Shown piece by piece: positions 33,131 to 63,205 of a stretch of 64,000 nucleotides of DNA; position 1 is the first letter of the stretch, and every line of letters begins with the position of its first letter. A program made the position numbers and the translations under genes. Source of the DNA: Eretmocerus hayati (lineage: Eukaryota; Arthropoda; Insecta; Hymenoptera; Aphelinidae); assembly GCA_029851415.1 (NCBI GenBank), contig CM056742.1:56794454-56858453 (forward strand). Reading direction: 5' to 3'. The notes under the pieces were generated by a model that saw only the letters and a program-made list of their open reading frames with translations, was not told the origin of the DNA and searched no databases.

Positions 33131-33571
33131 TAGTTCAGCAATCACAGTGTAAAAATCTGTAAGTCGACAAAAGTTTATCGCAAGTGTAACGGGAAACACC
33201 ATAGTTTCATTCATTCGGAATTGGAGAGGCCAGTCGAACCTCAAGGTAATGACAAAGGGGGCGATTCTGTCTCATCGGGGGATGAAAGAGTTCCGGGGAA
33301 CGGTGAAAATTCGCATGCTACCACTACCTCTTGTCTAACTTTGGTAAAAAGCTCGAGTTTCGTGCTTTTGCCAACGGCTGTCGTCAAGGTGATCTCATCA
33401 GACGGGTTTGAGTACTTCTTCACGGCTTCGATTGATCACTGTTCATAGTCTTCATTCATTTCGGAGGATGCTTGCCAAAAATTAGGGATTAAAAGGACGA
33501 AATCAAAGGTTCAAGTCAAGGGTGTTGGTGATCTCGTTACTCGGGCTTCTCGAGGTACAGCAAATTTCCTT
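33131..33571 (+). pseudogene. BEL aspartic protease remnant
   Basis: The frame 33221-33448 runs through SFVLLPTAVVKV, which matches the start of BEL proteases. The catalytic region, where a D(S/T/Q)G triad is expected, reads ASIDHCS followed by a stop. Sequence after the stop (GIKRTKSKVQVKGVGD) still looks like protease in the same neighbourhood. Catalysis is lost. Confidence 0.6.
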
Positions 33572-34562: not shown

Positions 34563-34565
34563 TTA
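34562..34565 (+). repeat. Target-site duplication GTTA (left)
   Basis: GTTA precedes the left LTR and recurs at 38215-38218 after the right LTR, a 4-bp duplication made when the nested element inserted into the BEL RT gene. Confidence 0.85.
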
Positions 34566-34888
34566 TGTGACGCCATAGGTGATTGCCCTTGTTGGTCAAT
34601 CACTCTGTCGTCGGTTCTGCAAGACCGATCGCCGATGCACACCTGGAGGAATGCATCACGCGATCACGTTTTGCTGACCTTTGCACTTTTACACTGTGCG
34701 ACACGCGACGAGTCGAGGGCATATAAGCCATGACTCGCGCGCGCCGCATCAGACCGCTCAGGAACCCCCATTTCGGGAGTGCCCATCACTCACTCTCAAT
34801 ACACACAGTTACCGTCAATTCATTCAATACATTTATTTCTACCATCTTTCGAGTCTATTCTTCCAGTCATCGACCACCCCACGTCACA
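34566..34888 (+). repeat. Left LTR of the nested element
   Basis: Begins TGTGACGCCATAGG and ends CCACGTCACA. GGGCATATAAGCC near 34719 is a likely TATA box with CATCAGACCGC about 25-30 bases downstream as initiator. Confidence 0.9.
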
Positions 34889-36211: not shown

Positions 36212-36745
36212 TTGAATTTTTACACAGAGAATATTGAAGTAGATAGACCAGAGTCAGTAACCCATATCTGCTTGAAATCCGAAGAGTCATATGGAATAGC
36301 TACTTGCAGCAAGGTCATCACCCCGAGGCGAGGAATCGCGTTACAAATACCGCAACCTGGAATCTGCGAGTCAGCACCGCGCATACATTCGAAACTTGGC
36401 ATCATGATACATGCAAGCAACGCGCGCAAACAACGAGTTAGGCAGAAAAAAGTGAGAAAAATATCAGGCAAAATCGTTTCATGGAAAACGGTCGAAAAAG
36501 ATTCCAAAGAGTCAAATGTGTTGAATAACCCCGGAGTAGAGACGGTCAATGACCGAGTGCACAAGTTTGGAGCACAATTATCCGCAGAGTACATCGCGAA
36601 GAGCAAATACTTTAGTTTAGTATTGAAAGCCAGGCCGCCTCGCGAGAAGCCACCCTGGATACTTTATTCTAGAGAGGGAACTTCCACCTTTCCTCTAAAT
36701 TGCAAGGGAGCGACGCGAGATAGTCAAAATGTCTCATATAGTTAG
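36212..36745 (+). CDS. Unknown 177-aa ORF in the nested element
   Basis: ATG-initiated frame. The middle is basic (SNARKQRVRQKKVRKISGK) and the C-terminal half is mixed hydrophilic. No zinc finger, protease or RT motif is visible. Its length stands out in AT-rich DNA, but the opposite strand is also open for 128 codons. It could be a gag remnant or chance. Confidence 0.3.
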   Translation: MNFYTENIEVDRPESVTHICLKSEESYGIATCSKVITPRRGIALQIPQPGICESAPRIHSKLGIMIHASNARKQRVRQKKVRKISGKIVSWKTVEKDSKESNVLNNPGVETVNDRVHKFGAQLSAEYIAKSKYFSLVLKARPPREKPPWILYSREGTSTFPLNCKGATRDSQNVSYS

Positions 36746-36904
36746 AGAATGAGTGGAACATAGGGGTAATTCATGTTAAAAATATCATAAAATTTTCCCG
36801 GTCCTCACACGTGAGTCACGTGATAATTTTATGAATACTAGCGCTAAGTTATATATGAAATTATAAGTCTTATTATATAAGGTCGATGAAATCCCATCTT
36901 TGGT

Positions 36905-37560
36905 TAATCTGCATTATTAGTCAAGAGTCCACGTGAGCTCGCGAAAATTTTCAAATGACCAAATTCTTCAAGAGGATATTAGTCAAGAGTCCACGTGAGC
37001 CCGCGGAAATTATCAAATGACTAATTTCACACCATGAGAGTCCAAAAATTCTGACCATCATCCAAACTTTTTTCAATCCACGAAGTTGACAGAGATCAGT
37101 ATTAGATATTGACGAAGGTATGGTGATATACTGCAGAAATATTGAGTGAATACAATGAGGATCTTGTATAAATTACTTGAAGTATCGTAGGAATATGGGA
37201 TGTATATTGATAAAGATATTACAGAAATATTGGATCAACTCTGATGAAAATACTGTCAAAATATTGTAGGAATAAGATAGAAGCATTGGATGAGTATCGT
37301 CCAAAATATTGTAGAATATCGTAGTAGTATTGATAAGTATTCAGAAAAATATTGTAAAATGTCGTAGAAAAATATTGGAAATTGTCAGTGGAAGATTGTT
37401 AAAAACATTAAGAAAATATTGTAACAAGGTTTCGAGAAATATTGTCAAAATCATTGTAAAATATTATAAGAGTCATTGAAATATTGATATAAGATCGAGA
37501 ATCGATAAGAGATCGGTTGAATATATGGTTAGAATATCACACGAAAATACTGTCGGGGAA
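36905..37560. repeat. 61-bp duplication and degenerate AT-rich repeats
   Basis: TCAAGAGTCCACGTGAGC occurs at 36919 and 36980 (61 bp apart). From about 37100 to 37560, variants of ATATTGTA(G/A)AA(A/T)AT and ATCGTAG recur every ~20-40 bp, an internally repetitive AT-rich filler. Confidence 0.6.
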
Positions 37561-37889
37561 TTGAGAAGATGCTGTAGAAATCTCAGAAATATCATACAGA
37601 ACAAAATCAAAAATACTCTGTTCCAGGATTTTACAGGTGTTGAAGGAAAATATTCTTCCAGAAGAACACAGAACTGAGGTCAATTGAAGCACTTGAAACT
37701 TGGAACTATTGAAATGGACCAGAAAACGATAACGAATGCGAGAGAAATAACGATATGATATGTTGACAAGAACTGGAAGAAACTATGAAAGCCCCATGAT
37801 AAACCTATGTGAAATCTCATGTGGAACATCATACATTCACACAAAACACGAAGGGCTTGTCGAGGACGACAAGATCCCGGCCTCACACG

Positions 37890-38214
37890 TGTGACGCCAT
37901 AGGTGATTGCCCTTGTTGGTCAATCACTCTGTCGTCGGTTCTGCAAGACCGATCGCCGATGCACACCTGGAGGAATGCATCGCGCGATCACGTTTTGCTG
38001 ACCTTTGCACTTTTACACTGTGCGACACGCGACGAGTCGAGGGCATATAAGCCACGACTCGCGCGCGCCGCATCAGACCGCTCAGGGACTCCCATTTCGG
38101 GAGTGCCCATCACTTACTCTCAATACACACACAGTTACCGTCAATTCATTCAGTACATCTATTTCTACCATCTTTTGAGTCTATTCATTCAGTCATGGAC
38201 CACCCCACGTCACA
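37890..38214 (+). repeat. Right LTR of the nested element
   Basis: Nearly identical to 34566-34888 (a few substitutions and a 2-base CA expansion), implying a young insertion relative to the decayed BEL host. Confidence 0.9.
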
Positions 38215-38218
38215 GTTA

Positions 38219-39788
38219 CTTATGGGTTGAAATGCTCACCGTATTCAGCTATCAGAAAGTTGAGGCGGTTAGCAAAAGATTACGGCCTCCTTTTCGCACG
38301 TGCTATTGAAATCATTGAAGATGAATCTTACATGGATGATTCTATGTCGGGAGGAGAGACAGTAGAGGAAACTAGGGAGGAACAGATCCAATTGATCGAG
38401 ATTCTAAAGGTGGGCGGTTTTGAGCTGAGAAAATGGGCAGCCAACAACGCTAGATTGATCGAAGATATTTCTGTTGATCATAGAATTCACGGTTCGGCGA
38501 CTCTTGATTCTGATGATCGTACCTCCATACTGGACCTTTCTTGGGCACTGAGAGAAGATTATTCCCATCTCAGGATCAAGTTTCAAGCTTTTGACAATCA
38601 GAATTCGACGGAGAGGTTTTGTCGCTGACGGCAAAAATCTTTGACCCTCTAGGATGGTTCGCTCCTGTAGTAATTTGGGCTAAAACATTCATGCAATCTC
38701 TTTGGTTGCTAAAGTGTGATTGGGATGATGTGCTTTCGGAGGAATATTCAGAAGAGTGGTCTGATTGCTATGAGGAGCTGACGAATTTGCGAGAAATCAG
38801 GATACCTAGGTGGATAGGTTATTCGAGTCAGGGGTTAATCATACAGCTTCACGGGTTTGCAGGTGCTTCTTCCAAGGCATTCGGGACAGTAATTCACGTG
38901 AGATTGATCAGAAGTGGTCAGGTTTATGTGTCATTGCAGTGCGCCAAGTCAAAGGTAGCGCCAATTAAGACAACCAGTATACCTCGCCTAGAGCTTTGAG
39001 CAGCGTTATCACGAGCAAAACTCACCGATCACTTCTCGAAAATTATGCCTTTTGGAATGACATCGACTCATTCATAGTCAGATTCCGAGGATGTGTTGTA
39101 TTGGATTAGGGCTTTGCCAAGACGTTGGCAGACATTTGTTGCAAATAGGTGTTCGCAAATCCAAGAGTTGCTCCCTCAGGCTCACTGGCACCATGCCAGA
39201 TCAAAGGATAACCCTGCTGACATGGTTTTGCGAGGCTCAAGTCCTGAGCTGTTATCCACATTCGATGTTTGGTGGAAAGATCCTTTGTTCCTTCCAGAGT
39301 CGAGTCATCCGTGGACTTCTGAGGCGGAGAATGTGCAGGTTGAACCTCTCGAAGAGCGAACCACTACTCATGTCACTGGGTTACAGTGTCCGGATGACTC
39401 ACGTGACAACGAATTGCTTAATAGATATTCATCTGCTACTAAGCTTTTTCGGATCACTGCGCTTTGTGTTCGCTTCTTGACGAAATTTGGTTCTCGTCTT
39501 AGCGAGAGAAATAGAGGGAAAATCGAATCACCACGACTGCTATTCATAGATCTTGATGCTTTGTCCGAAGGGTTGTTGGATACCATCGAGATTAAGAACG
39601 CTGAATTGCTATGGGCTCATCTTGTTCAGAAGCAGAGTTTTCGGAATGTTTATAGGTGCCTTAAGAGAAACCTAGAGCTCAAAGGTACACATTTGAGAAA
39701 TTACGACCATTTCTGGATCGAGGACCTCTGCGGGTTAGAGGTAGACTTCGTCATTCGAATTTGGACTACACCGCAAAGCACCCACTGA
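38219..39788 (+). pseudogene. BEL RT C-terminal part and RNase H region
   Basis: Starting with TYGLKCSPYSAIRKLRRLAKD, it carries the catalytic YMDDSMSGG motif (about 38330-38356). It then passes through a frame change near 38620 into the Pao-type connection (AKIFDPLGWFAPVVIWAKTF, IPRWIGYSSQG) and a RNase H-like segment (YVSLQCAKSKVAPIKT, SIPRLEL then TGA). The frame 39093-39788 continues it (RWQTFVANRCSQIQEL). The YMDD active site is intact, but stops at about 38997 and frameshifts kill the polyprotein. Confidence 0.8.
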
Positions 39789-40958
39789 TTCTGCCAAGCA
39801 AGGGCCCTTTGACTGCTCACCAGGAGAGCTCACGAGGAAACTCAGGACGGAGGGACGCACTTAACTTTGGCAATCTACGAAATCGGTACTGGATTGTCAC
39901 TAGTCGACAAGCAGTAAAGGTTCTAATCGACAAATGCACGGTATGTCTCAGATTTTTCGCTAAAATGTCTACCCAATTGATGGGAGATCTGCCTAAGAAT
40001 CGAGTCACTCCAGCTTACTCCTCTGAACATTCGGGAGTGGACTTCGCCGGCCCATTCAAAATAGGGTTGGTGAAGGCTAAAGGGAAAGGAACCATGAAAG
40101 CTTACGTCTGTATCTGTGTATGTCTCAGTACAAGAGCTACGCACTTGGAGGCTGTGGAAGACCTCACTTCGGAAGCATTCCCCGCTGCCTTCGAAAGATT
40201 CACTGCAAGGCAAGGACACTGTTCGAGAATAGAGAGTGACAACGCGCTCAACTTTACTGGTGCTAATGCTGAACTTCGTCAACGCTTTGACCAGGCGTCT
40301 CAGGAGTTCAAGGACCTTGATGTAGATCTTACAAATCTAGGAACGGAATGGAGATTCAATCCACCTTCGGCACCGCACTGCGGGGGACGTGGGAGGCTGC
40401 TGTCAAATTCGCCAAGCATCACTTCAAAAGGATAGTTGATGACCATATTCTTACCTTTGTTGAAGTCTCTACTTTGCTATGTCAGATTGAAGCTTGCCTA
40501 AATTCAAGACCAATAACTCCTCTCCGAGATGAATCTTCTGAATTTGCTGTGCTTACCCGAGCATATTTCTTGATACAGAGACCTTCCTTCATTATTCCAG
40601 AGCCTTCGGTACCTAAAGGACTAATTCCAGTCAATAAGTGTTGGGATGGATGACTCAATTGGTCCAGGAATTTCGGAAGTTTTGGTCAAAGGATCATCTC
40701 CAAGCTCTACAAAAACGACATGAATCGTCCAGGCCTCCAAGGGCTTCCCGGCTTAGCGGCGTAGTGTTGCTTAGACAGGGCTGTCACTCTCCAGCACTCT
40801 GGCCTATGGCTGTTGTCATTCAAACATTCTCTCGTGCTGATGGAAGGATTCGGGTGGTCGGAGTTCGCACCGCCAATTCTACATTTGTTCGACCAATAGT
40901 CAAACTCGTGCTGCTTGTTCCGGATAATTCGTCAAAGGAAGATAGTGATAAGGATTGA
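39761..40958 (+). pseudogene. BEL integrase, frameshifted
   Basis: The 39761-40435 frame contains an H2C2-like zinc region (KVLIDKCTVCLRFFAK) and catalytic-core Asp positions in HSGVDFAGPF and ESDNALNF. The core motif following PPSAPHCGG moves to another frame, where WEAAVKFAKHHFKR supplies the third acidic residue (frame 40348-40653). A further shift leads to the C-terminal domain frame 40638-40958 (SRADGRIRVVGVRTANS, then a RPIVKLVLL end). Integrase joins element DNA to the chromosome in functional copies; this one needs at least two frame repairs to be open. Confidence 0.85.
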
Positions 40959-49808: not shown

Positions 49809-50276
49809 ATGTAAGTGTGAAGTCATGTGAGAGCGAGAGTGTCAATGTCCGTGTGTGTCGCGATACAAATTCTTATCGCGAACTCTCTCTCATTATAATC
49901 GTCTAGACTTGAATACCTTCATTCTCTTATTTCTAATCTTACAAAATGTGATTTTTTTTGTTTGCATACGATTATGCTTAAAACATGTTCGATGAATTTC
50001 TAAAAATCATGAATATTTTTGATGAAATTTTTGAAAATTATTAACAATCAATCATTAACAACTAATCTTTTCGATTGTATGAATATATAAGGTTCTATAC
50101 CTCTATTCGATGCAAATGTTTTACAAGATTATGAAAGCATGGAAATGTTGGGAAAAATTATTAACAATAGATTGTTTACGAACAATGAACCTCAATTCTA
50201 TGGTTATTCATATGAGGTCCTATACCTCAATTTGATTAACAAATTTTCCCCCAAAAAGTTCATTTTTTGTATGAAC
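49809..50276. other. Left flank of the gypsy-type element
   Basis: AT-rich; ATGAGGTCCTATACCTC and AAGGTTCTATACCTC are short duplicates (about 50210, 50089). The last bases before the LTR (ATGAAC) do not match those after the other LTR (ACACGG). Confidence 0.45.
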
Positions 50277-50336
50277 TGTTACAGAATCGTTGATTATTCT
50301 TCCACAAACACTCACTCACTCATATCCCTTATGATT

Positions 50337-50815
50337 AACAGAGGCTATCTGTTCAACCGAATTCCGGTATATAGTAGCGTTCCCTTGGTAATATAACTAG
50401 TTAATAAATACTTGATAATTAACAAGGGCTATCTGTTCAACCGAATTACGGTGTATAGTAGCGTTCCCCTGATAATATGAATGATTAATGAATAATTAAT
50501 AGTTGACAAGGGCCATCTGTTCAACCGAATTACGGTATATAGTAGCGTTCCCTTGATAATAATACTAAATAATGAATAATTAATAGTTAACAAGGGCTAT
50601 CTATTCAACCGAATTACGGTATATAGTAGCGTTCCCTTGATAATAGTACTGAATAATGAATAATTGATAGTTAACAAGGGCTATCTGTTCAACCGAATTA
50701 CGGTATATAGTAGCGTTCCCTTGATAATAATACTAAATAATAAATAATTAATAGTTAACAAGGGCTATCTGTTCAACCGAATTACGGTATATAGTAGCGT
50801 TCCCTAGATAATAAT
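50337..50815. repeat. 84-bp tandem repeats x6 in the 3' LTR
   Basis: GGC(T/C)ATCTGTTC landmarks at 50343, 50427, 50511, 50595, 50679 and 50762 give an exact 84-bp period. Each unit contains CAAGGG ... CCCTTG (or CCCCTG), an inverted pair about 37 bp apart, so each can form a hairpin. The 5' LTR has four copies. Because transcription starts upstream in the sense direction, the array lies in R/U5 of the element RNA. Confidence 0.9.
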
Positions 50816-51070
50816 ACTAAATCAACAATCAAACTCTTTCATTCAAAAATACACAACGATTCCATAACTTATTTCTTAATATTCCCTAGTTTTTGAGGCA
50901 ATAGCGGAGCTAATATCCTCCGGGAGTAAGGGAGTGAAGAGATCGGTTTGTTGACGAAGGTTAGAATGTATGACACGAGTCGCGATTAATTAATCAATTG
51001 AAAGTTATCGAAACGAGTCCCTGAACGAATTCCTATTAAATCACAAATTTGGCGATTTTCGGATCCACAT

Positions 51071-51123
51071 GGGTTATGGGTTATGGGTTATGGGTTACGG
51101 GTTATGGGTTACGGGTTATGGGC
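51071..51123. repeat. GGGTTA(T/C) heptamer repeats (3' LTR)
   Basis: Seven to eight GGGTTAT/GGGTTAC units in a row, duplicated at 61413-61464 in the other LTR. The G-runs could form a G-quadruplex on the plus (antisense) strand. It resembles telomere repeats only superficially. Confidence 0.9.
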
Positions 51124-51803
51124 GATGAGACGGAAGATTGGTACAACGAATATATGATTCTTGTCGGTGAGTTACAAGTCCGGTCTGAACGTTGTTAATG
51201 AGTTGGATGGTTTCGTGTATAATATTCTATCTTCCCTCGAGTCGGTATAGTGATGAGTATCTTCCCCTGCATCTGGGTTGGATATATTCTAAGAATTATT
51301 CAAACGTTAGTTACTCACCCCGTTCGGGTTTCTGGATGAAGATAATATATTCGAAGACAATGAAGAAACTGCTCCAATTATTCTTGATCTGATTCATTAC
51401 AACTCTATACTCTGATGTTGACAATCGGCAGGTTAAATATTTGTCGGCGATATTTCGATATATTGATCTCTGCTATTTTCAAAATTCTGATCACTGAATG
51501 ACGATTTTGGATTCTTGACCGAGATATCGGTCTCGATATCCTTGGTGGTTGTTCACTAAACACTCAATTCCGGATTCGGAATAACACAGATATTGATTCA
51601 AGATCACTTAAATTCTGTATCGATCTCGATCCTTGATCGAGATATTGGTCTTGATATTTGTTTCACAAACGTTCAACTTCACACGATCGTCTTGTCACAA
51701 TAACACACACGTACAACACTTGATCGTAAGATCAGCGAGAAGTTGACTTTAGACCGAAGAGTTATCTGCCGAGAGGACCGACACGGAGGAAAACTGGAGA
51801 GAA

Positions 51804-51840
51804 ACTGAGTTGATGGGCCCTTCTGCAGTCTCTTTTTATA
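51804..51840 (-). promoter_or_regulatory. LTR core promoter (3' LTR copy)
   Basis: In the sense direction TATAAAAA (51840-51833) is followed by the initiator TCAGT (51808-51804), about 30 nt downstream. The same arrangement is in the 5' LTR. Confidence 0.7.
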
Positions 51841-52479
51841 CCGAATTTAGGAATGTTCGGAATTCGGTAGTGGGCGGGTTTCTATTCGACGATTTGAAGA
51901 ATTTAAAATGTTTTTCCGTAGAGAAAAATCAATAACTTAGACTCCGGGGGGTCAAAAAGTCGATGCTCAGCAGGTACGTATACTAGACATAGGCCGAGCC
52001 AAGACTGACATAACTGTCTAGATGCTTGGCAAGTAACACCTCATTGCGAAGAATTTGGGCTCAGGGCGGTTCATCTTGACCGCGTACCCGCGATGTTTTC
52101 TCCGTCCCTTGCCTAGTCCGTTACTATTTTTTATTACTCTTCGGTACCTCGTCCTTCTGTTGTGTTTTTCCTCTACTCGCTTTCACTTTTGTTTTGCTTC
52201 GACCGTTCGACGTTTGAGTGAAAAACCGTGCATTGCATTCATCTCATCTTTCTTAACTCGAAACATACACAATATTCGTGTAAAAATATGGTACATTCAT
52301 ACAGTACATTCACTCGTTACATACGTTACATGATAACATTCATTCAGTACTCACTACAATTATTAGTATATATTAGTATATGTTCAATACACACACTACA
52401 ATATTAACATTCAAACATTACATTTATTCAACACGCATACTCTATTTAATATACGCACACTACATGATCACATTCACAC

Positions 52480-52790
52480 ATCAAACATTCAAAACAAGCA
52501 TTACATTCATACATCCATTCGTTCCACACATTACACAAGTACATTCACACATCGTACACATAAAACATTCAAAACAAGCATAACATTCATACATCCATTT
52601 ATTCCACACATTACACAAGTACATCCACACATCGTACACATAAAACATCCAAAACAAGCATAACATTCATACATCCATTCATTCCACACATTACACAAGT
52701 ACATTCACACATCGTACACATAAAACATCCAAAACAAGCATAACATTCATACATCCATTCATTCCACACATTACACAAGGCGCAGCCGTT
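52480..52790. repeat. ~80-bp tandem repeats at the outer U3 (3' LTR)
   Basis: AAAACAAGCAT(A/T)ACATTCAT recurs with an 80-bp period (about 52491, 52571, 52651, 52731). Similar units occupy 62900-63190 in the 5' LTR, within the first ~300 bp of U3, a position where enhancer repeats are usual. Confidence 0.85.
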
Positions 52791-52793
52791 ACA

Positions 52794-52807
52794 CCTCCCC
52801 CCTTAAG
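52794..52807 (-). promoter_or_regulatory. Polypurine tract
   Basis: Sense CTTAAGGGGGGAGG lies directly against the 3' LTR start TGTAACGG. This is the expected primer site for plus-strand DNA synthesis. Confidence 0.85.
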
Positions 52808-54198
52808 ACCGGACATTAGGGGTTACAATAGCCCCGAATGTCCGTTACAATGTTTCGCAAAATTCCAGGCTGTATAATTCAAAATCAATGAACTCTCATT
52901 CCTTCTAGCGTCAGTGATCAGATACACTTTTCAAAATACTCTATCTTTTTGAATGCTTTTACGAATATTCACATATCGCCGAGATAACAAAGTTCCATGG
53001 TAACATATGGTAAAATTCAAAAGTACATATTTGAATGTGTTGTAATTCGAGCGAAATTCTTTCTTTTGCATTATTGTTTCCTTATTAATTAATGTAAATA
53101 GAGTTATGAAAGTTATTCTTATTTCTTTCTCAATAATTAGATGGTTTCATCAATGGTGATAATAGAGGTAGATCATAATATGAAGGTAAATATTCGGTTA
53201 ACATTGGAATTCTTTATTTTGTAATAGAATAGCAGTCTTATCAACGATGATATTGAGGTAGAATGTCGAAAACTCTTGTAGATTTGATATTCTTGTAAAC
53301 TCAACAGTCTTAATAATGATGATATTGAGGTAGAATATAATTGAGCTAATAATTGAGCTAGATTTCGATTACGTATTAATAAATGTTGAGTTTCCTCATT
53401 CATTTTTTGTTGTCAATAGACACTTTCGAGATCTTTGTAATAAACTAACAGTCTTATCAATGATGATATTGGGCTAAATTTCGATTGCATAATGATAAAT
53501 ATTGAATTACTCATTATTTTTGTTGTCAATAGACATTTTCAAGATCTTTGTAATAAACTAACAGTCTTATCAATGATGATGTTGGGCTAAATTTCGATTG
53601 CATAATGATAAATATTGAATTACTCATTATTTTTGTTGTCAATAGACATTCTCGAGATCTTTGTAATAAACTAACAGTCTTATCAATGATGATGTTGGGC
53701 TAAATTTCGATTGCATAATGATAAATATTGAATTACTCATTATTTTTGTTGTCAATAGACATTTTCAAGATCTTTGTAATGAACTAACAGTCTTATCAAT
53801 GATGATGTTGGGCTAAATTTCGATTGCATAATGATAAATATTGAATTACTCATTATTTTTGTTGTCAATAGACATTTTCGAGATCTTTGTAATAAACTAA
53901 CAGTCTTATCAATGATGATGTTGGGCTAAATTTCGATTGCATAATGATGAATATTGAATTACTCATTATTTTTGTTGTCAATAGACATTTTCGAGATCTT
54001 TGTAATAAGCTAACAGTCTTATCAATGATGATGTTGGGCTAAATTTCGATTGCATAATGATAAATATTGAATTACTCATTATTTTGTTGTCAATAGACGT
54101 TTCTAAAATTTTGGAATAACTGAATAAACTTATTGTAATAAGATGCAATATTGGGGTATAATATTATACTAGCAAACGTTGGAATGAAACGGAGGGGA
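52808..54198 (-). other. Element 3' non-coding region
   Basis: AT-rich, no ORF of note; holds the 113-bp repeats listed separately. About 1.4 kb of non-coding DNA between the last accessory gene and the polypurine tract is more than compact gypsy elements carry. Confidence 0.7.
53430..54115. repeat. 113-bp tandem repeats, about six copies
   Basis: ATTGCATAATGATAAATATT recurs at about 53484, 53597, 53710, 53823, 53936 and 54049, an exact 113-bp period with very few differences. A diverged copy precedes it at 53230-53400. The high identity implies recent expansion. Confidence 0.92.
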
Positions 54199-54819
54199 TC
54201 ACTCCTCTATGGGCTCAGACATCGAGTTGGAGCTCAGCTCGATTGGAATTGAAATTCTTAAATAATGGGTGATTTTACTTCGGCATATGCTACAATTTTT
54301 CAATTGTATGGAACATCTGCTGCACGCGACGCAATGACGACATGGTAATAACGCTATTCCTATTTTATCGTCGAAACAGATTTTACACGTTAAGGAGTTC
54401 GGAGTGTTCGCTGTGGTTGGTTCGGGCGGAAAAGGTTTTGTGATTACCTCTCTCTCTGAGGTGTTCGACGATTCCAATCTTTCCATGGTGGCCTTGATGA
54501 ATGTCTTTCCCTTTGTTGTGATTACGAAGTTGCAGTTGGGGAACCAACGGATATGTTCGATCCATGCGTTATCAGTAGATTCCCATTTCTTCAGAGTAAC
54601 ACCGCAATGAAAACATGACACGATGTCTCCTCGATTCGTATAGAAAAAGCCCGCCGCAGCTAGATCTTCCTTTGATTGGTGCATACTCCGTGGCCAATTC
54701 TTGTACGTCCGTAATCTATTTTCGTAAGTAGACATCCCTTTGCCTGCAGTATCGGCGATAATTCTGTTGATTGCGTCTGACAAGTTCCGGCAGTTCATGG
54801 TTGAGCTGGATTGATCCAT
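54199..54819 (-). CDS. IAP-family protein: one BIR plus C-terminal RING (206 aa)
   Basis: ATG at 54819. A BIR domain spans about residues 33-98, with RLRTYKNWP at its start and zinc ligands C69, C72, H89 and C96 in canonical CX2CX16HX6C spacing; WESTDNAWIEHIRWFPNC is typical BIR. A RING spans about 145-180 with C145, C148, C160, H162, C166, C169, C176 and C179 (C3HC4), preceded by a Pro/Thr-rich linker. Known IAPs bind caspases or IAP antagonists through the BIR and act as E3 ubiquitin ligases through the RING; this role here is inferred. One BIR plus RING is shorter than the two-BIR insect host and baculovirus IAPs. It is the last ORF before the 3' LTR, 73 bp after the FLYWCH-like ORF, same strand. 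No break is seen. Confidence 0.9.
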   Translation of the reverse strand: MDQSSSTMNCRNLSDAINRIIADTAGKGMSTYENRLRTYKNWPRSMHQSKEDLAAAGFFYTNRGDIVSCFHCGVTLKKWESTDNAWIEHIRWFPNCNFVITTKGKTFIKATMERLESSNTSEREVITKPFPPEPTTANTPNSLTCKICFDDKIGIALLPCRHCVACSRCSIQLKNCSICRSKITHYLRISIPIELSSNSMSEPIEE

Positions 54820-54892
54820 TTCTATAATAAGACGACATTCCGGTTGAGTAATGGTTAGTTCGATAAGTCAAACTCCTCCATGTAGAATTGTG

Positions 54893-55291
54893 CTAATTCC
54901 TCGTATTCTGGTGCTGAAATCGCAGGAGGTGATTCGGGTATGGTATCCTGGGAGTCAGTATCTGTTGTTTCTTCGTGGTACCTTGGAGGGTTCTTAGCTC
55001 ATGATTATGCGCAACCAATTTGATAACGGCTGAGTCATCTTTAACAAAAGCGTCTAACAGGGGTTCCAAAGCGTTTTTATCTAACGGGTATTTCACCCAT
55101 AAGCGTTTCTTGCACTCTGTACATTTCCATTTAGCGGCATCTGAAGCGATATTTCGTACGTAGAAGTTCATTTCTCCTTGTTTGGTATCGTTTCTCTTAT
55201 TGTTCCATGATTCACAATACTTCCCTTTGCGAGAGAGGGAACCAAAGTTTCTTGTTACGTAGACGAGGGGGTAGGTTCTTTGTTGCTCCAT
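54893..55291 (-). CDS. FLYWCH-like zinc-finger protein (132 aa), accessory ORF 2
   Basis: ATG at 55291. The layout resembles FLYWCH fingers: YPLVYVTRNFGS near the start, an aromatic/basic middle (residues 40-50), then WKCTEC with C57 and C60, and VAHNHEL with H95 and H97 as CCHH ligands. FLYWCH domains bind DNA or proteins and are found in insect chromatin factors and some insect viruses; a nuclear role is inference. The C-terminus is basic and Gln-rich. It sits between accessory ORF 1 and the IAP gene, intact. It could equally be a WRKY/GCM-like finger of transposon origin. Confidence 0.6.
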   Translation of the reverse strand: MEQQRTYPLVYVTRNFGSLSRKGKYCESWNNKRNDTKQGEMNFYVRNIASDAAKWKCTECKKRLWVKYPLDKNALEPLLDAFVKDDSAVIKLVAHNHELRTLQGTTKKQQILTPRIPYPNHLLRFQHQNTRN

Positions 55292-55324
55292 TTTCTTTGT
55301 TCTGTAATGAGAGACAACTGGAAT

Positions 55325-55370
55325 ATATATATATTCCTATTATATATATATATATATATATATATATTCC
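55325..55370. repeat. Interrupted (TA)n microsatellite between accessory ORFs
   Basis: ATATATATAT, then TTCCTATT, then a longer TA run. It lies between accessory ORFs 1 and 2. Confidence 0.9.
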
Positions 55371-55931
55371 TCAACAGGGTTGTTGTCGTTGTAATAGGTC
55401 AAAAATGGTTTGTCTCTCTCTGTCAAAGCGTGCTCTGGTTGTTTCTCCGGGTTCGATTTTGGGTTTCTTCAGGGTTGATTCGTTCTCGCTATCAGTGTCG
55501 CTTGAATCTATTATCTCTATGTCTGAGTCTTCTTCATGACGCCTCCTCTGTCTACGGGCTCTGATTTCATTGCGGTAGTTGGCCCGTCTGGCCATATCTT
55601 CGGTTTGGAAGAAGTCTTCTGTGCATAAATTACAACATATTACTGGGTTTTCGTTGAGTACAGACCTCAGACACACGCGACAATCTAAGTGCATGGCTCC
55701 TCTAGGTGCTGTGGTATGCCAGACTTGATATACTCTGACAGGTTCGTTGTAGGCGAAGTGGTGTCTCCAATAGCATCTATTACATTCAATCATTCCGGTC
55801 CAACTGCTAGCATAGTAGGACACTATATTTGGATTCTTGACTATGCACGCGTATTCTAGTAATCTTTCGAAGGTCTCTGGGTGATCTTGTGGCAATATTC
55901 CATCAAAGGGTATGTCGTCTTCTCCTTGCAT
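55371..55931 (-). CDS. Cys/His-rich nuclear-type protein (186 aa), accessory ORF 1
   Basis: ATG at 55931. The N-terminal two-thirds has paired zinc ligands: IECNRCYWRHH (C50, C53, H57/H58), WH at 71-72, HLDCRVC (H81, C84, C87) and ICCNLC (C99/C100, C103), suggesting one or two zinc-binding modules of unknown family. A basic stretch (RARRQRRR, 124-131) is followed by DSDIEIIDSSDTDSE (residues 135-149), which matches a SUMO-interacting motif flanked by acids/serines, and by KKPKIEPGE, a possible NLS and sumoylation site. A role in nuclear ubiquitin/SUMO biology is inference. It starts 54 bp after the env remnant stop, is intact, and shares strand and spacing with the next two ORFs. Confidence 0.65.
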   Translation of the reverse strand: MQGEDDIPFDGILPQDHPETFERLLEYACIVKNPNIVSYYASSWTGMIECNRCYWRHHFAYNEPVRVYQVWHTTAPRGAMHLDCRVCLRSVLNENPVICCNLCTEDFFQTEDMARRANYRNEIRARRQRRRHEEDSDIEIIDSSDTDSENESTLKKPKIEPGETTRARFDRERQTIFDLLQRQQPC

Positions 55932-55985: not shown

Positions 55986-56477
55986 TTAACGTGGAATATG
56001 GTTCAGAGATTCGGTACGGCCAATATGTGGGTAAATTTGTTGATATTCCTCGTTTCGGTGGCTGTTGCGGTCATGTGTCTGATTGGTTTGGTCAATTGGT
56101 TCCCTGTTGACGTGTTTTCCTTCAGACTGTTTCGTTGTTTCGATCAGTTGGTATTCAATGTCGTCAGATTGGTTGTTCAATTTTCCTTTCTTCTTCTTTC
56201 GGTCTATTTCGTCTTCACGGTAATCTTTACCAAGATGTAACAGGAGTTGCGTGATGGAGTTCCAGACTGCTCCAATTATGTGAAGTGACCATCTGTAGAT
56301 ACTGTATAATGCGTAACCGTGAATGATTGTGTCAAGTATCAGTTTAATGACTCTGAGTAGGATGAATACTCCCATAAATCCGGCACAAATGGATCCGAAG
56401 GTTACGAATCTCATCCACATTTTTTCCCAAGTTGATGCAGCTAATTTTTCTAATGCATCGGCATCCATCAGACCCAT
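55986..56477 (-). pseudogene. Envelope-like glycoprotein, membrane anchor and tail
   Basis: ATG at 56477. The frame begins with a short amphipathic segment (ALEKLAASTWEKMW). Two hydrophobic segments follow (about residues 24-48 and 54-85), then a ~75-residue polar tail rich in Lys, Asp, Gln and His. This is how the C-terminus of a retroviral or viral fusion glycoprotein looks. The ectodomain is missing. Its class (errantivirus F-type or a captured negative-strand-virus glycoprotein) cannot be settled by eye. Alternatively it is a small membrane protein in its own right. Confidence 0.6.
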
Positions 56478-56617
56478 TGTAAGAGGCCTCCTTTGAGTGT
56501 TTCACGACCTGCTATCCCTAGTGCGACCGAGTTCAATACTGGTCCTCTTTCTAAGGGGAACATTATCCGATCTCTCAATCTGTTTGTATCAGCAGGCGTA
56601 TATAATCCGCTTGTTGC
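56478..56617 (-). pseudogene. Envelope-like fragment in a different frame, at the deletion junction
   Basis: In a frame different from the ORF at 55986-56477, this stretch reads as protein with LYTPADTNRLRDRIMFPLER and VLNSVALGIAG, then stops at the overlap. It looks like the segment that precedes the membrane anchor. A frameshift near 56470 separates it from the anchor. It abuts the RT fragment directly, so the intervening pol and most of env have been deleted. Confidence 0.55.
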
Positions 56618-57780
56618 TAGTTGTGCTTTTTATTCAGTTCCCTGTAGTCCAAAACCATCCTATATCGTTTGTTGCCTTTACTGTCTTCCTTTTTCGGTAC
56701 AACCCACACTGGATTACTGTAGTTTGATTCAGATGGAACGATAATATCATTTTCTAGGAGTTCTTTCACTTGTCTATTTATTTCTTCCCTGAATACAGGT
56801 GGTAGCCTATACTGTCGAGCATGTACAGGTATGTCATCGGTAGTGGGGATTCTGTGTTTAATAACGTTCGTGGAAGTAAGTTTTTCCCCTGGTAAGTGGA
56901 AAACGTCCGCGTAGCGAGAAACCCATTTGATTGCTATTTGTTTTTCTTCTGCGTTGAGGTGATCTAGCCTGAGTAAGGCAATAACTCTTTCAGCTCTAGA
57001 CATCCCATCCGTATTGGTGATAGAAGTTGTATTCTGTTGTAATAAATTCCTCCGAATGCCTAATTCATGGCCGTTAAATTTTTCATAACCACAATTGAGA
57101 TCCCAAGGATTTCCTTGTATTGACTGGCCAACAGCAGTCGATTCCGCACACCCTTCTTCTGAGGACTGCATATGAGGGGTATCTATTTCACTATTATACT
57201 CCATAGATGTTCCGGGGGAATTCTCTTCGTGGAAATTTAAAATTTCTTCTGTGGTTAGACCCTCATCTTCTTCGAGATCGGCTTCAGTATTACCTAAAAC
57301 TGCCTCATGTTGAACCCTTTCGTATAACTCTTCGCAAATATTATTTTCACAATTACCGCATAAGCTGTCGAACAAAATTAAATCCGCATTATTCCTCACT
57401 TCGAATATACTATAACAGCGGTCGCAAGTGCTTGAAAAATTGTTGAATTCTAACTCTTCATTAATGACTTCCCTGGATATCAAATTTTGGTGTTTCATAG
57501 ATAAATTTTCTCGTATGTCATCTATTTTATCCTTCAAATTATTTTCACTCGTTGACTCCTCTGGAAAAATTTCTGAATATTCTTTCGTTGATTCACGTAT
57601 CTCTTCTCCTTTAATAACATTTGTCTCATCTTGTTCTGAACGCACCCTTTGTTTTACTTCTATCAGAATTTCGTCGTTGCTCTCATTAGTGTTGGTATTT
57701 TCAGTAAATGATTCTTCCTCAATCTCGTTATCTTCGTGATTAGGATTTCTCGATTGTTTCTCGTTACCGTATTCGATTTC
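56617..57780 (-). pseudogene. Pol fragment: linker and RT fingers, truncated
   Basis: The frame is open from the overlap with pro (about 57790) through a long acidic, low-conservation linker to a Ty3/gypsy RT start: HRIPTTDDIPVHARQYRLPP, EEINRQVKELLENDIIVPS, NPVWVVPKKEDSKGNKRYRM and VLDYRELNKKH. It then stops at 56617. The palm with its YxDD aspartates, RNase H and integrase are absent. Full pol proteins of this group exceed 1000 residues; about 340-390 remain. The frame is -1 relative to pro. The copy cannot reverse transcribe itself. Confidence 0.85.
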
Positions 57781-58340
57781 TAGTCCCTGGACATGATGGT
57801 GAACTTGAATGTTTCTTGTTCAATATTACTCCTTATATCTTCTGAATTGGTTCTGAGACATGTATCGATACTCTCTTTGTCAAATGTCATGATCTCAGTG
57901 TTTTCGTTCGAGATTGGATTCACCCGCGTGCGTGAATCAGGCTCGAAGAAAAAGATTTGGTCATCAATCTCAATATGGTTTTCCGGATAATTTATTTTCG
58001 CGTTGGTTTTTCTGAAACAGTCGCTACCCAAAATTCCCGATTCTTTTATGGGGAAATTTTCGCTCTCTACACAAAATTCGATGACATGATCGCCGAGCTT
58101 CATTTCGATTGTCCCTGAAGTCCTAATATATTCGGGAGTGATTCCCTTCAAATTTATAACTTTCTTGTCTTGTACCCTCATCTCTTGAGGAAGACCGTTG
58201 ATCTTAATCAGATTTGGTCCGGCACCCGTATCTAACATGAATTTTAATGGACCATCGAACTCAAACATGTCCAAGTTGATTGTAGGGGCACCGTTTATCT
58301 GATTCAAATGTATGGTTCTAGTTATTATGCGGTGGTTTCT
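57780..58340 (-). CDS. Retropepsin (aspartic protease), in the pro frame
   Basis: FMLDTGAGPNLI gives the catalytic DTG (Asp about 26 of the shown frame), followed by a flap-like region and ILGSDCF, the usual hydrophobic-G motif near the retropepsin end. The codon at 58307 is TTG, not ATG, and the frame stays open upstream into the gag end, so it is probably made by a -1 frameshift from gag. It would cleave Gag and Pol polyproteins during particle maturation. No internal stop is seen. It overlaps gag by at least 15 nt and the following pol frame at its 3' end. Confidence 0.8.
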   Translation of the reverse strand, partial: RNHRIITRTIHLNQINGAPTINLDMFEFDGPLKFMLDTGAGPNLIKINGLPQEMRVQDKKVINLKGITPEYIRTSGTIEMKLGDHVIEFCVESENFPIKESGILGSDCFRKTNAKINYPENHIEIDDQIFFFEPDSRTRVNPISNENTEIMTFDKESIDTCLRTNSEDIRSNIEQETFKFTIMSRD

Positions 58341-60688
58341 CGGCCAGTCGAAGTGTTCGGGCGAGAATTCGGCTGAGTCTCCCGGCTCACGCCCGTTTGA
58401 GGGAGACCAGTAGCGTTTCCCGGATTCACTCTACCGTTGCGTACATCATTTTGAAATTTATAACAGTCTCGTTTGTAGTGCCCGATTTTCTTGCAGTAGT
58501 AACATTCTATTCGAGTATCTGTATTTCTAGCTAGGTTATTAGTCTGAGAGCTATTTCGAGGAATTGCACCGGTGTTTTCTGTGGGACGAGAATGATTTGG
58601 GTTGAAATTTCGAGGTCCTGTATAATTTTGATTTGACTGCCCGAATGTAGGATTGGAATTTCTGTAATTCCCGTAATCATTCTGTATTCTATTGTTAGAA
58701 TTATTGTTGTAATTGTTGGTATTCTGATCTGTACGCGGTGGGTAGGTATTGTTTCTCCCATATTCCGTTGGTTGTCTCGAGGGTATGAAATTTGAGTTGG
58801 GTGGTCTCGATCTATAGTCTGCATAATCGGGTCTGGATGCGTTGCGGTCTAAACCATTTCTCTCACCGAAACTAGGATTTGTCTTCATGAAGAGGGAAAA
58901 ACAATTCATCAAAAAGTGGCCTGGTTTGTTACAAAATTGACAGACGATTGCGGGTGGATTGTTGGTATTTTCAACTAGGTGAATCTTCCTAGTTTCCCTC
59001 AGATTTCTGGTTTTGATTCCGTCTTTCTTCTGTATTTCATCAGGTTCGCTACATGCAAACTCTCTCTCAATTTCAAAAGCAAGTTCTTGTGCGTCCTTGA
59101 AGTTACTAGGCGTGCCGACTCTTGCTCGTATTTCCCATTGTAATCCGCGTAAGAAGAATTTTGGGCGATCTCGAGATAACTCATCTACAAACTCAGCAAG
59201 ATTTTTTATCCGTTTTTCACGAGTTCCAGATTTGATGATCTCTTTCTCGATTTCCCTCAATCGATTCAGATAAACTATGACGGATTCATCGGATTTCTGT
59301 TTGATTTTTGCTAAATCTCCGGTCCATTCATGGAAAGTCTTGGGAGAGCCGAAAGCGTTTTCAAAAAGCGTCGCGGTTTCGTCGATGGTCTCAAAATTTC
59401 GGCCACTTAAACATTTCAAAGCTTCACCATAAAGTTTCATTCGAATCAGTTTTGTTAATTCATTTTCCAAATAATTAGGTAGTATTTCCTTTGCGTCGTG
59501 ACATCCGTCTAAAAATTGAGTTAAGCTGATATTTTGACCGTTGAAACGAGGGATCAGATCGAGGGCATCCTTAATCGAGATCCCTCTGACTTCCGGCAAT
59601 TTGCCCGATCGGTTGGTAGTCATGTTTTTGTAGTCGCTAAACATTGTAGAAGTACTGTGTTCTGTTTTGGGGTCGAGGAGATTCTTAATTTCTGAATCTG
59701 GGTGATTTTCAAGTTTGAAATCGAAGCTGTTAACTTTTGGTTTCGGCTCGAAAGTTTTGTTGTCGAGACATTTATTCGTAGCTTCTGCGGTTATATATTT
59801 CGCGGAAGATTGTGTAGACTCCTTTAAAGTCTCCAATATAATCTTATCTTGCTCACTCTCCTCGGGATATGTGGGTATGATTCGTGAACCAATGATCTCT
59901 TTCTTCGCAAAACAGTACAATTGGTAGATATCGTCACCCTCGTTATATTGTTTTACTATTCCTTCGATATTATCCGGATTATCTAGATATTCTGTAACCC
60001 TTTCCCTCTTAATATCTTCCGTTTCTAAAAGGATTGTGAGTGTTTTGATGAGCTGTTCTGGTCTAAGAGTCTTCTCAGAGTTTGTAATTGGGCTCAATGT
60101 TAAGATTTGGTTATTCGTGCGTTGATACTCGTGTGATTGGAGTGGTAAACTTGTAACTCGTGCGTCTATCTGTGCGTCAGAATTTGTGATTATCTGGGGT
60201 GGAATTTTACTCTGAGTTGGTTTGGTTTCTTGGTGCAAAGTCGGATTAAATACGGGTGGCCGGATAAGGGGTTTGGTTGGTTTGGGAATTTCCTGAGGGG
60301 TATCAATGTCAGAGTGATCATTGACGATTGAACTCGAATCTACCGTAACACCGCCCTTATTTCTATACGTTAGAAACTTGTCTTCGAATCGTAAGGCTTT
60401 CCGTTGTTGGCTCTTTTTATCTTGACAAAAATCTGAATCAATATTATGTGTGGCTAAAGTTCTGTCAATCTGAGTTTCGAGTGATTTCAACTCTTTATCT
60501 AACCTTTGCAAATCTGTATTGGAACCACCGTTTTCAATGACCGTATTATACTGTAATTGTTGGTCCAAATATCTATTCAACAAAGTATCTCCCAAATCGA
60601 CCTCGTTTGTTGCTTCACGATTTCTTGAACCGCTAATTTAAGGGACTGGAAAATTTTCAGAGTTAACGGACTGGTCAAAATTTGACAT
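58325..60688 (-). pseudogene. Gag polyprotein, full length except for an early TAA
   Basis: The long frame (756 codons from 60595) lacks an ATG at that point; TTG occupies 60595. An ATG at 60688 in the same frame reads MSNFDQSVNSENFPVP and then hits TAA at 60640-60638, after which the frame is open to 58325. One nonsense change therefore separates it from a complete gag. The protein has a hydrophilic N-terminal region, a retrotransposon capsid segment (for example DALDLIPRFNGQNISLTQFL near residue 342), and two CCHC knuckles, CQFCNKPGHFLMNC (about 548) and CYYCKKIGHYKRDC (about 690), separated by an Asn/Pro/Arg-rich linker. Gag would package RNA and form the particle. Confidence 0.85.
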
Positions 60689-60745: not shown

Positions 60746-60763
60746 TTCCCGGCCGATGCACCA
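60746..60763 (-). promoter_or_regulatory. Primer-binding site for tRNA-Gly(GCC)
   Basis: Plus-strand TTCCCGGCCGATGCACCA equals the last 18 nt of insect tRNA-Gly(GCC) including CCA, so the sense RNA is exactly complementary. It sits 24 nt inside the 5' LTR end, at the expected position for starting minus-strand DNA synthesis. Confidence 0.9.
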
Positions 60764-60847
60764 GAATTTTGTTATAAATAACACCACTGTTACAGAATCG
60801 TTGATTATTCTTTCACAAACACTCACTCACTCATATCCCTTATGATT

Positions 60848-61160
60848 AACAAAGGCTATCTGTTCAACCAAATTCCGGTATATAGTAGCGTTCCCTTGGT
60901 GATATAACTAGTTAATAAATACTTAATAATTAACAAGGGCTATCTGTTCAACCGAAATACGGTGTATAGTAGCGTTCCCCTGATAATATGAATGATTGAT
61001 GAATAATTAATAGTTAACAAGGGCTATCTGTTCAACCGGATTACGGTATATAGTAGCGTTCCCTTGATAATAATACTAAATAATGAATAATAAATAGTTA
61101 ACAAGGGCTATCTGTTCAACCGAATCACGGTATATAGTAGCGTTCCCTTGATAATAATAC
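60848..61160. repeat. 84-bp tandem repeats x4 in the 5' LTR
   Basis: GGCTATCTGTTC landmarks at 60854, 60938, 61022 and 61106, exact 84-bp period. They lie in the RNA leader between the transcript start and the primer-binding site. Confidence 0.9.
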
Positions 61161-61412
61161 TGAATCAACAATCAAACTCTTTCATTCAAAAATACACAAC
61201 GATTCCATAACTTATTTCTTAATATTCCCTAGTTTTTGAGGCAATAGCGGAGCTAATATCCTCCGGGAGTAAGGGAGTGGAGAGATCGGTTTGTTGACGA
61301 AGGTTAGAATGTATGACACGAGTCGCGATTAATTAATCAATTGAAAGTTATCGAAACGAGTCCCTGAACGAATTCCTATTAAATCACAAATTTGGCGATT
61401 TTCGGATCCACA

Positions 61413-61464
61413 TGGGTTATGGGTTATGGGTTATGGGTTACGGGTTATGGGTTACGGGTTATGG
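61413..61464. repeat. GGGTTA(T/C) heptamer repeats (5' LTR)
   Basis: Same tract as 51071-51123, without copy-number change. Confidence 0.9.
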
Positions 61465-62147
61465 GCGATGAGACGGAAGATTGGTACAACGAATATATGA
61501 TTCTTGTCGGTGAGTGACAAGTCCGGTCTGAACGTTGTTAATGAGTTGGATGGTTTCGTGTATAATATTCTATCTTCCCTCGAGTCGGTATAGTGATGAG
61601 TATCTTCCCCTGCATCTGGGTTGGATATATTCTAAGAATTATTCAAACGTTGATTACTCACCTCGTTCGGGTTTGTGGATGAAGATAATATATACGAAGA
61701 CAATGAAGAAACTGCTCCAATTATTCTTGATCTGATTTATTACAACTCTATACTCTGATGTTGACAATCGGCAGGTTGAATATTTCTCGGCGATATTTCG
61801 ATATATTGATCTCTGCTATTTTCAAAATTCTGATCACTGAATGACGATTTTGGATTCTTGACCGAGATATCGGTCTCGATATTCTTGGTGGTTGTTCACT
61901 AAACACTCAATTCCGGATTCGGAATAACACAGATATTGATTTAAGATCACTTAAATTCTGTATCGATCTCGATCCTTGATCGAGATATTGGTCTTGATAT
62001 TTGTTTCACACAACGTTCAACTTCACACGATCAACTTGTCACAATAACACACACGTACAACACTTGATCGTAAGATCAGCGAGAAGTTGACTTTAGACCG
62101 AAGAGTTATCTGCCGAGAGGACCGACACGGAGGAAAACTGGAGAAAA

Positions 62148-62184
62148 ACTGAGTTGATGGGCCCTTCTGCAGTCTCTTTTTATA
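62148..62184 (-). promoter_or_regulatory. LTR core promoter (5' LTR), likely element promoter
   Basis: Sense TATAAAAA (62184-62177) and initiator TCAGT (62152-62148), about 30 nt apart. This is the strongest core promoter seen in the window and would drive the full-length RNA. Confidence 0.75.
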
Positions 62185-63205
62185 CCGAATTTAGGAATGT
62201 TCGGAATTCGGTAGTGGAAGGGTTTCTATTCGACGATTTGAAGAATTTAAAATGTTTTTCCGTAGAGAAAAATCAATAACTTGGACTCCGGGGGGTCAAA
62301 AAGTCGATGCGCAGCAGGTGCGTATACTAGACATAGGCCGAGCCAAGACTGACATAACTGTCTAGATGCTTGGCAAGTAACACCTCATTGCAAAGAATTT
62401 GGGCTCAGCGCGGTTCATCTTGACCGCGTACCCGCGATGTTTTCTCCGTCCCTTGCCTAGTCCGTTACTATTTTTTATTACTCTTCGGTCCCTCGTCCTT
62501 CTGTTGTGTTTTACCTCTACTCGCTTTCACTTCTGTTTTGCTTCGACCGTTCGACGTTTGAGTGAAAAACCGTGCATTGCATTCATCTCATCTTTCTCAA
62601 CTCGAAACATACACAATATTCGTGTAAAAATATGGTACATTCATACAGTACATTCACTCGTTACATACGTTACATGATAACATTCATTCAGTACACACTA
62701 CAATTATTAGTATATATTAGTATATGTTCAATACACACACTACAATATCAACATTCAAACATTACATTTATTCAACACGCATACATTCAATACACATACT
62801 ACAATATTAGCATTCAAACATTACATTCATTCAACACGCATACTCTATTTAATATACGCACACTACATGATCACATTCACACATCATACACATCAAACAT
62901 TCAAAACAAGCATTACATTCATACATCCATTCGTTCCACACATTACACAAGTACATTCACACATCGTACACGTAAAACATCCAAAACAAGCATAACATTC
63001 ATACATCCATTCATTCCACACATTACACAAGTACATTCACACATCGTACACATAAAACATCCAAAACAAGCATAACATTCATACATCCATTCATTCCACA
63101 CATTACACAAGTACATTCACACATCGTACACATAAAACATCCAAAACAAGCATAACATTCATACATTCATTCATTCCACACATTACACAAGGCGCAGCCG
63201 TTACA

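Follow-up and report, generated by a model that had tools for sequence, protein, structure and literature searches.

Does a gene for an inhibitor of apoptosis protein (IAP) that lies inside a retrovirus-like provirus belong to that provirus, and what would it do there? The question is raised by a 64,000-nucleotide stretch of the Eretmocerus hayati genome (Hymenoptera: Aphelinidae; GCA_029851415.1, contig CM056742.1, forward-strand positions 56,794,454 to 56,858,453; hereafter the window), in which an earlier note had placed three intact, ATG-started open reading frames (ORFs) between env and the 3′ long terminal repeat (LTR) of a Ty3/gypsy-type element. All three are present in that interval as described:

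54199..54819, minus strand: IAP gene, ATG start, 206 amino acids (aa), one BIR and one C-terminal RING
54893..55291, minus strand: ORF132, small accessory ORF, ATG start, 132 aa
55371..55931, minus strand: ORF186, conserved accessory protein, ATG start, 186 aa

The copy survey and selection analysis reported here answer the first part of the question, in that the IAP belongs to the element and is maintained by it; for the second part we favour a role in prolonging the life of infected cells.

The IAP gene recurs with the element

A tblastn search with the IAP against the genome (692 Mb in 17 contigs, four of which make up nearly all of it) returned at least 96 matches, a lower bound from which the following subclasses were counted. 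At least 23 matches are close copies, the window included (190 or more residues covered, identity 74% or higher), and 18 of these are stop-free; at least 26 more are diverged copies (about 160 residues or more at 48–61% identity), and the remainder comprises fragments, one 42% match and host-type IAPs. Apart from the window there are 22 close copies, of which 20 were retrieved, each with 10 kb of sequence; of the 26 diverged copies, 5 were inspected. Both the IAP and ORF132 matched at all 20 fetched loci, ORF186 at 16, the tail of the envelope gene at the same 16, and LTR sequence at 17. Locus L011 retains only the end of ORF132, and at L028 the ORF132 match is at most 53% identical and lies ~1.9 kb from the IAP; matches to ORF186 and the env tail are missing from L011, L018, L025 and L026, the LTR match is missing from L025 and L026, and L023 has only the stretch just before the LTR. 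The 20 loci are distributed over the four large contigs, and the 3′ flanks differ among the three copies in which the 3′ LTR end is visible (L016, L020 and the window). In all five inspected diverged copies the IAP is preceded by a chuvirus-type env (of which L034 shows only the end) and by ORF186, and the IAPs of the diverged subfamilies are only 51–63% identical to that of the window.

Since the position of the IAP and the LTRs around it are shared by other copies, the gene is the element's own. The proposal that the element had acquired an IAP is thereby borne out, and the order env, ORF186, IAP in each of the five diverged copies agrees with it; copies of the element lacking the cassette, the finding that was to count against it, did not turn up in the survey. 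An assembly chimera is very unlikely because the cassette occurs at many loci. At C1:82825159-82829459 (G000), two IAP copies lie ~3 kb apart in opposite orientation.

The IAP protein and its conservation

The 206-aa protein matches the Pfam BIR (PF00653, 6.9e-24) and RING (zf-C3HC4_3, 2e-11) families. As had been read from the sequence beforehand, the window copy contains all 12 zinc ligands of the two domains, four of them CCHC ligands of the BIR (C69, C72, H89 and C96) and eight in the C-terminal RING, and each ligand is retained by 20 or 21 of the 21 copies compared. The solved structures nearest to the BIR are the NAIP BIRs and cIAP1 BIR3, and those nearest to the RING are the RINGs of cIAP2 and cIAP1, the top PDB chain being the cIAP2 RING (7.1e-10). 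In an alignment to cIAP1 BIR3, Leu76, Trp79, Asp83 and Trp92 fall at positions of the groove for the IAP-binding motif (IBM), and we take these four, on XIAP numbering, to be the equivalents of the XIAP BIR3 groove residues. The groove positions look right for IBM binding; peptide or caspase binding and E3 activity are only predicted. A protein-database search yielded three proteins among 36 candidates, all on contigs of 1.2–2.4 kb, and a scan of IMG/VR with the IAP gave one pattern match and no confirmed one.

Selection on the reading frame was evaluated from summed nonsynonymous (dN) over summed synonymous (dS) divergence in 210 pairs from 21 copies. The ratio for the IAP was 0.31 in frame, compared with 0.85 and 1.03 in the two wrong frames; the pairs are non-independent, and the off-frame control shares the same relatedness. 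The IAP is under purifying selection. Ratios for ORF186, the env tail and ORF132 were below 0.6 in every dS bin, values computed in frame only and without an off-frame control. For the binned set, high-scoring segment pairs covering less than 60% of the query were dropped, which left 21 rows for the IAP, 16 for ORF186, 17 for the env tail and 18 for ORF132, window included.

In a tree of IAPs, 24 element sequences fall on one side of a branch and four host-type IAPs on the other, with support 100/100. Here and in the wider tree considered below, L013 and L018 were left out for their stops and L022, L027 and L028 were entered as the open piece only; three database proteins and two rows of host BIR1 are also absent from the 100/100 tree, to which L039 and L040 were added. 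Identities of the IAP and of the env tail vary in step (r 0.93 over the 21 copies that have all three genes, taken from 26 with an IAP; 0 of 2000 permutations was as high). This correlation and the single-group tree therefore make one IAP acquisition followed by co-descent, before at least three subfamilies diverged, the simplest account. The host IAP1-type genes of the same genome, L037 and L038, have two BIRs and a longer linker, and the 24 element IAPs group apart from them; their second BIR and RING resemble the element IAP. The donor may have been a host gene or another virus, none of the outside relatives found being close enough to decide. At L037 (C2:119821330-119822680) the two BIRs and the RING occupy one uninterrupted 436-aa frame, and the paralogue L038 is split over two frames.

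Anatomy of the window copy

The provirus in the window lies on the minus strand between two LTRs of ~2.5 kb. Read 5′ to 3′, the features accompanying the three ORFs given above are:

60788..63205, minus strand: 5′ LTR, 95.4% identical to the 3′ LTR, TG...CA ends
60746..60763, minus strand: candidate primer-binding site, read from the sequence, 24 nt in from where the 5′ LTR ends
58325..60595, minus strand: gag ORF, 756 aa, with zinc knuckle (zf-CCHC 7.8e-6)
57780..58307, minus strand: aspartic protease ORF, 175 aa (RVP 1.8e-5)
56617..57645, minus strand: 5′ part of pol, to the start of reverse transcriptase, truncated by an internal deletion
56610..56640, no strand: internal-deletion junction, approximate (blastn matches to L009, L016 and L017 begin at ~56625)
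55986..56477, minus strand: C-terminal 163 aa of a chuvirus-type (Monjiviricetes_fusion) envelope glycoprotein (PF24664 7.6e-31)
53233..54155, minus strand: stretch with 113-bp tandem repeats, between the IAP and the 3′ LTR
52794..52804, minus strand: polypurine tract abutting the 3′ LTR
50277..52793, minus strand: 3′ LTR, with the same LTR end in L016 and L020

Gag, protease and the start of pol thus precede the junction, and the glycoprotein tail, ORF186, ORF132 and the IAP follow it in that order. The pol part has no Pfam match on its own; its residues 102–330 are 96% identical to L011, where pol runs on past the matching part into RVT_1, RNase H and integrase domains. Gone from the window copy, with the junction near 56620, are the rest of pol, the ankyrin ORFs, an F-type env and most of a second env. 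The window copy is best explained, as one part of an account that we hold to be probable as a whole, as what an internal deletion has left of a large, complex endogenous retrovirus of Ty3/gypsy type. The env that had been reported beside the cassette is real as a glycoprotein tail matching PF24664, but it amounts to the last 163 of 712 aa only and is chuvirus-like rather than of the usual gypsy type. The candidate primer-binding site resembles what is presumably the complement of a tRNA-Gly 3′ end.

The LTR identity refers to the longest alignment (2283 columns, 17 gap openings). No target-site duplication was seen when the LTR flank sequence of the window copy, the only copy compared at both ends, was inspected; the copy may therefore be a recombinant between copies, and the divergence of its LTRs is not taken as an age. 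The LTRs hold 84-bp and 80-bp tandem repeats, with tandem-repeat spans at 50251-50970 and 52396-52935. Elsewhere in the window, ORFs at 32331-40435 look by eye like pieces of a BEL/Pao-type pol, and those at 17849-18334, 18331-18870 and 23431-23904 have a long peptide stretch in common, by eye a local repeat family. Rfam at gathering scores gave no match in the window.

Other copies supply pol, ankyrin ORFs and two envelopes

What the deletion removed can be read in other copies. The ORFs of L011 match RVT_1 (1.4e-27), RT_RNaseH (5.8e-37) and Integrase_H2C2 (3.6e-18), followed by rve (3.7e-9); this order of reverse transcriptase, RNase H and integrase, together with the paired LTRs of the window, identifies a Ty3/gypsy LTR retroelement. 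L029 continues from the end of integrase into three ankyrin-repeat ORFs (Ank_2 2.9e-26, 1.2e-50 and 4.4e-25) of 523, 483 and at least 290 aa, which lie between integrase and the F-type env (L029:1101-5100, C2:59058664-59063763; also L031). Integrase and the first two ankyrin ORFs match in L031 at 95–99%, and the first matches in part in L011. Most of the 20 close-copy loci begin downstream of the integrase and ankyrin part, and in 8 of the 20 there is a weaker match to ankyrin, compatible with the third of the ORFs. By eye the ankyrin ORFs seemed to end in a PRANC/F-box-like adaptor domain, but a Pfam scan of their C-terminal pieces gave no such domain in any of the three; the only match, for the third ORF, was to DUF1615 at 5.2e-4, below the cut-off of that family.

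After pol comes an envelope of Baculo_F type (L009 4.6e-29, L017 2.9e-28), missing from the window copy through the deletion, and then a Monjiviricetes_fusion glycoprotein of 712 aa (PF24664 3.3e-211 in L009; also L016 and L021, with the domain matched in L033 and L035 too). Of the 20 close copies, four (L009, L016, L017 and L021) have the 712-aa frame open throughout. The F-type env matches 16 of the 20 close copies, and all 16 also have the chuvirus-type env, which matches 18 of the 20 and all five diverged copies. In L009 (oriented 686-4810), as in L016, L017 and L021, the two env ORFs, of unrelated families, are adjacent and in the same frame, one stop codon apart with an open stretch before the second ATG (Pfam was run on both in L009 only). 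An IMG/VR scan with the second envelope gave two pattern matches, neither confirmed. Summed from pieces of different copies, with no single full copy assembled, the element is estimated at roughly 24 kb. The accessory cassette of the earlier note is element-borne, as proposed, but is only the 3′ end of a larger set, ankyrin ORFs and two envelopes included, that the window copy has lost.

ORF186 and ORF132

ORF186 and ORF132 both have cysteine pairs. In the alignment of copies ORF186 has paired CxxC motifs and an invariant acidic DSDIE motif, which by eye is followed by hydrophobic and acidic-serine residues like those of a SUMO-interaction motif. We found no clear relative of ORF186 in Pfam, PDB or the protein database (0 of 16 protein candidates passed), and an IMG/VR scan with its alignment gave 76 pattern matches, none confirmed; the AlphaFold model from the single sequence is poor (pLDDT 50). 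ORF132 likewise has no clear relative in these searches, with 0 of 12 protein candidates passing, a best PDB hit of E 0.0045 without a passing stretch and a best Pfam hit of E 0.013. PHROGs gave one weak match each (ORF186 E 0.5, ORF132 E 0.15).

The window ORF132 is open, as had been claimed, but its end is frame-shifted relative to other copies: the last 31 residues are in a different frame from that of 18 of the 20 other copies, the match splitting at residue 100/101. The gene in its L009 form runs for 145 aa from the ATG. Among the diverged copies ORF132 matches in L032 and L033 and has no match in L034–L036, the most diverged of those inspected, in which ORF186 at 33–39% and the IAP at about 50% are still present. 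Because L034–L036 lack an ORF132 match yet keep ORF186 and the IAP, ORF132 was gained, lost or changed separately from the other two.

Proposed role of the IAP and alternative explanations

We think it probable that these copies belong to a complex endogenous retrovirus lineage that would use its IAP to delay the death of infected cells. An ancestor would have acquired a BIR-RING IAP gene, which has been kept under selection beside two env genes and ankyrin-repeat genes. The accessory and env genes, the IAP among them, would be made from spliced subgenomic RNA; the BIR groove would bind the IBMs of host death activators or of an initiator caspase, and the RING would mark those partners, or a host antiviral protein, with ubiquitin. 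The infected cell could then stay alive long enough to reverse transcribe a very long genome, or alternatively the delay could let enveloped particles be made and passed to the germ line, and the ankyrin proteins may act on NF-kB-type signalling. Of 35 start sites scored, 31 have their best 3′ splice-site-like AG (within the 40 nt upstream) 2–29 nt before the ATG, and it ranks at or above the 82nd percentile of AGs in the same stretch.

Several points weigh against this reading. Purifying selection means that the protein matters to the element; it does not show caspase blocking. Five of the 23 close IAP copies contain a stop, and the genome-wide counts are for the IAP only, with none for ORF186, the envelopes or the ankyrin ORFs. 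Ankyrin ORFs were present in two of the three upstream stretches fetched, L030 having no integrase or ankyrin match. In the wider tree, to which the three database proteins and the host BIR1 domains were added, support for the element group is 90/97 and the branches of the database relatives are long. The splice score was devised for this analysis and takes the highest-scoring of several AGs, with no control for that choice; its four exceptions are ORF186 of L024 (a misplaced start), ORF186 of L035 (46th percentile) and, each with its best site 36 nt from the ATG, the IAPs of L032 and L035.

The same gene could serve the element mainly in immune signalling, where, with IkB-like ankyrin proteins, it would dampen an IMD/NF-kB-type response, or it could ubiquitinate a restriction factor. 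DIAP2 of insects functions in IMD signalling, and the vankyrins of polydnaviruses are IkB mimics; the three ankyrin ORFs in the same element and the intact, conserved RING also speak for this alternative. The BIR, however, keeps groove positions expected of IBM-binding BIRs, on our assumed correspondence with XIAP BIR3, and the C-terminal pieces of the ankyrin ORFs show no PRANC/F-box adaptor domain in Pfam; we regard immune signalling as unlikely, though a serious contender. Less likely still, to the point of being improbable, is that the accessory ORFs help to make particles or to export and package RNA, with the IAP RING regulating Gag/Env turnover or budding. Retroviruses do use ubiquitin for budding, and ORF186 and ORF132 offer cysteine pairs and no clear known relatives, but a conserved BIR is unneeded for such a role and nothing points to Gag or Env as the substrate.

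The IAP might instead be a passenger: the element would at some point have transduced a host IAP transcript, which then came to lie between the LTRs and was copied along without function. It does resemble an IAP1-type BIR2 plus RING of the host, and LTR elements do trap host transcripts, according to the available part of PMC6431247. Against this, the in-frame dN/dS of 0.31 compared with 0.85–1.03 off frame largely refutes a functionless passenger, 18 of 23 copies are stop-free, and the IAP is retained in subfamilies whose IAPs are so diverged from that of the window (51–63% identity); we give the passenger very little credence. The absence of a target-site duplication and of most of the coding region from the window copy would suit a host IAP gene standing by chance beside a degraded provirus, or an artefact of assembly. 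That explanation has a negligible probability given an IAP with element sequence at the 20 fetched loci on four large contigs and at all five diverged loci, with 3′ flanks that differ in the three copies where they are visible; the copy survey refutes both host-gene insertion and assembly artefact.

Relation to known elements and viruses

The earlier note knew of no LTR retroelement with an IAP gene, a statement that has to give way to a partial precedent, the BIR domain of planarian Burro. As far as the accessible part of PMC6431247 goes, the giant polyprotein of the gypsy-like Burro / GYPSM1 elements, themselves giant, carries an env together with BIR, ankyrin, RING-type and BCL2-like motifs, the Burro env is related to gypsy Env and to mononegavirus fusion glycoproteins, and the reviewers of that paper suggest meddling with apoptosis and ubiquitination. 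Both Burro, so described, and the present element are giant, gypsy-type and equipped with BIR, ankyrin and RING-type features and an env. Burro, however, is described there with the motifs inside a single huge ORF1 polyprotein and with its env placed between gag and pol, whereas the present element has separate ORFs after pol and integrase: a stand-alone BIR-RING IAP beside the 3′ LTR, three ankyrin ORFs and two separate envelopes. BIR and ankyrin domains inside a gag-env-pol polyprotein, the Burro arrangement, were thus not found, and general Pfam scans found no BCL2 or MATH domain in the ORFs scanned.

Errantiviruses (gypsy, ZAM and kin) share the Ty3/gypsy pol layout and an F-type env after pol (Baculo_F 4.6e-29 here), and fit gag, pol and env into about 7–8 kb; the present element has in addition the ankyrin ORFs, a second envelope, ORF186, ORF132, the IAP and ~2.5-kb LTRs. 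IAPs of baculoviruses and other large DNA viruses, and polydnavirus vankyrins, are host-control factors; here genes of both kinds, a BIR-RING IAP and ankyrin genes, belong to a reverse-transcribing element. A chuvirus glycoprotein captured as an env-like gene is described for Anakin, a BEL-Pao element, in the accessible part of PMC7642597; Anakin-like elements and the present one thus both use a chuvirus-type glycoprotein as env, the latter being gypsy-type. Available portions of two further papers state that capture of a chuvirus glycoprotein by gypsy was, in 2023, not clearly shown (PMC10084718) and mention gypsy elements with type III fusion glycoproteins (PMC13172572). The word "apoptosis" does not occur in the accessible text of these three papers, nor "ankyrin" in that of PMC13172572, and the accessible text of PMC12440569 (Troyka), PMC3124438 (shrimp repeats) and PMC6275457 (mites) holds no match to the present element. 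Among the matches listed in a full-text literature search, whose coverage excluded most subscription papers and bioRxiv, no paper that we recognised deals with an arthropod retroelement that carries an IAP of its own as a stand-alone gene, two envelopes or ankyrin ORFs.

We advance tentatively, and somewhat short of thinking it probable, a broader view in which the element represents an arthropod lineage of complex reverse-transcribing viruses that was infectious until recently: with F-type and chuvirus-type entry glycoproteins, and with three ankyrin proteins and a BIR-RING IAP as a host-control module, it would be a retroviral counterpart, independent of Burro, of the toolkit of large DNA viruses. 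A cell-death blocker, ankyrins and two unrelated envelopes make up a set more typical of large DNA viruses than of retroviruses. The finding is of a retroelement with an acquired, selection-kept, stand-alone IAP joined to ankyrin genes and two envelope types and, with Burro, of a second, differently built giant gypsy-type element that holds apoptosis and ubiquitin domains. Two such cases suggest that control over the death of the host cell is a recurring need of very long reverse-transcribing elements. The present element also offers a natural test of whether endogenous retroviruses of invertebrates possess accessory genes comparable to those of the complex retroviruses of vertebrates.

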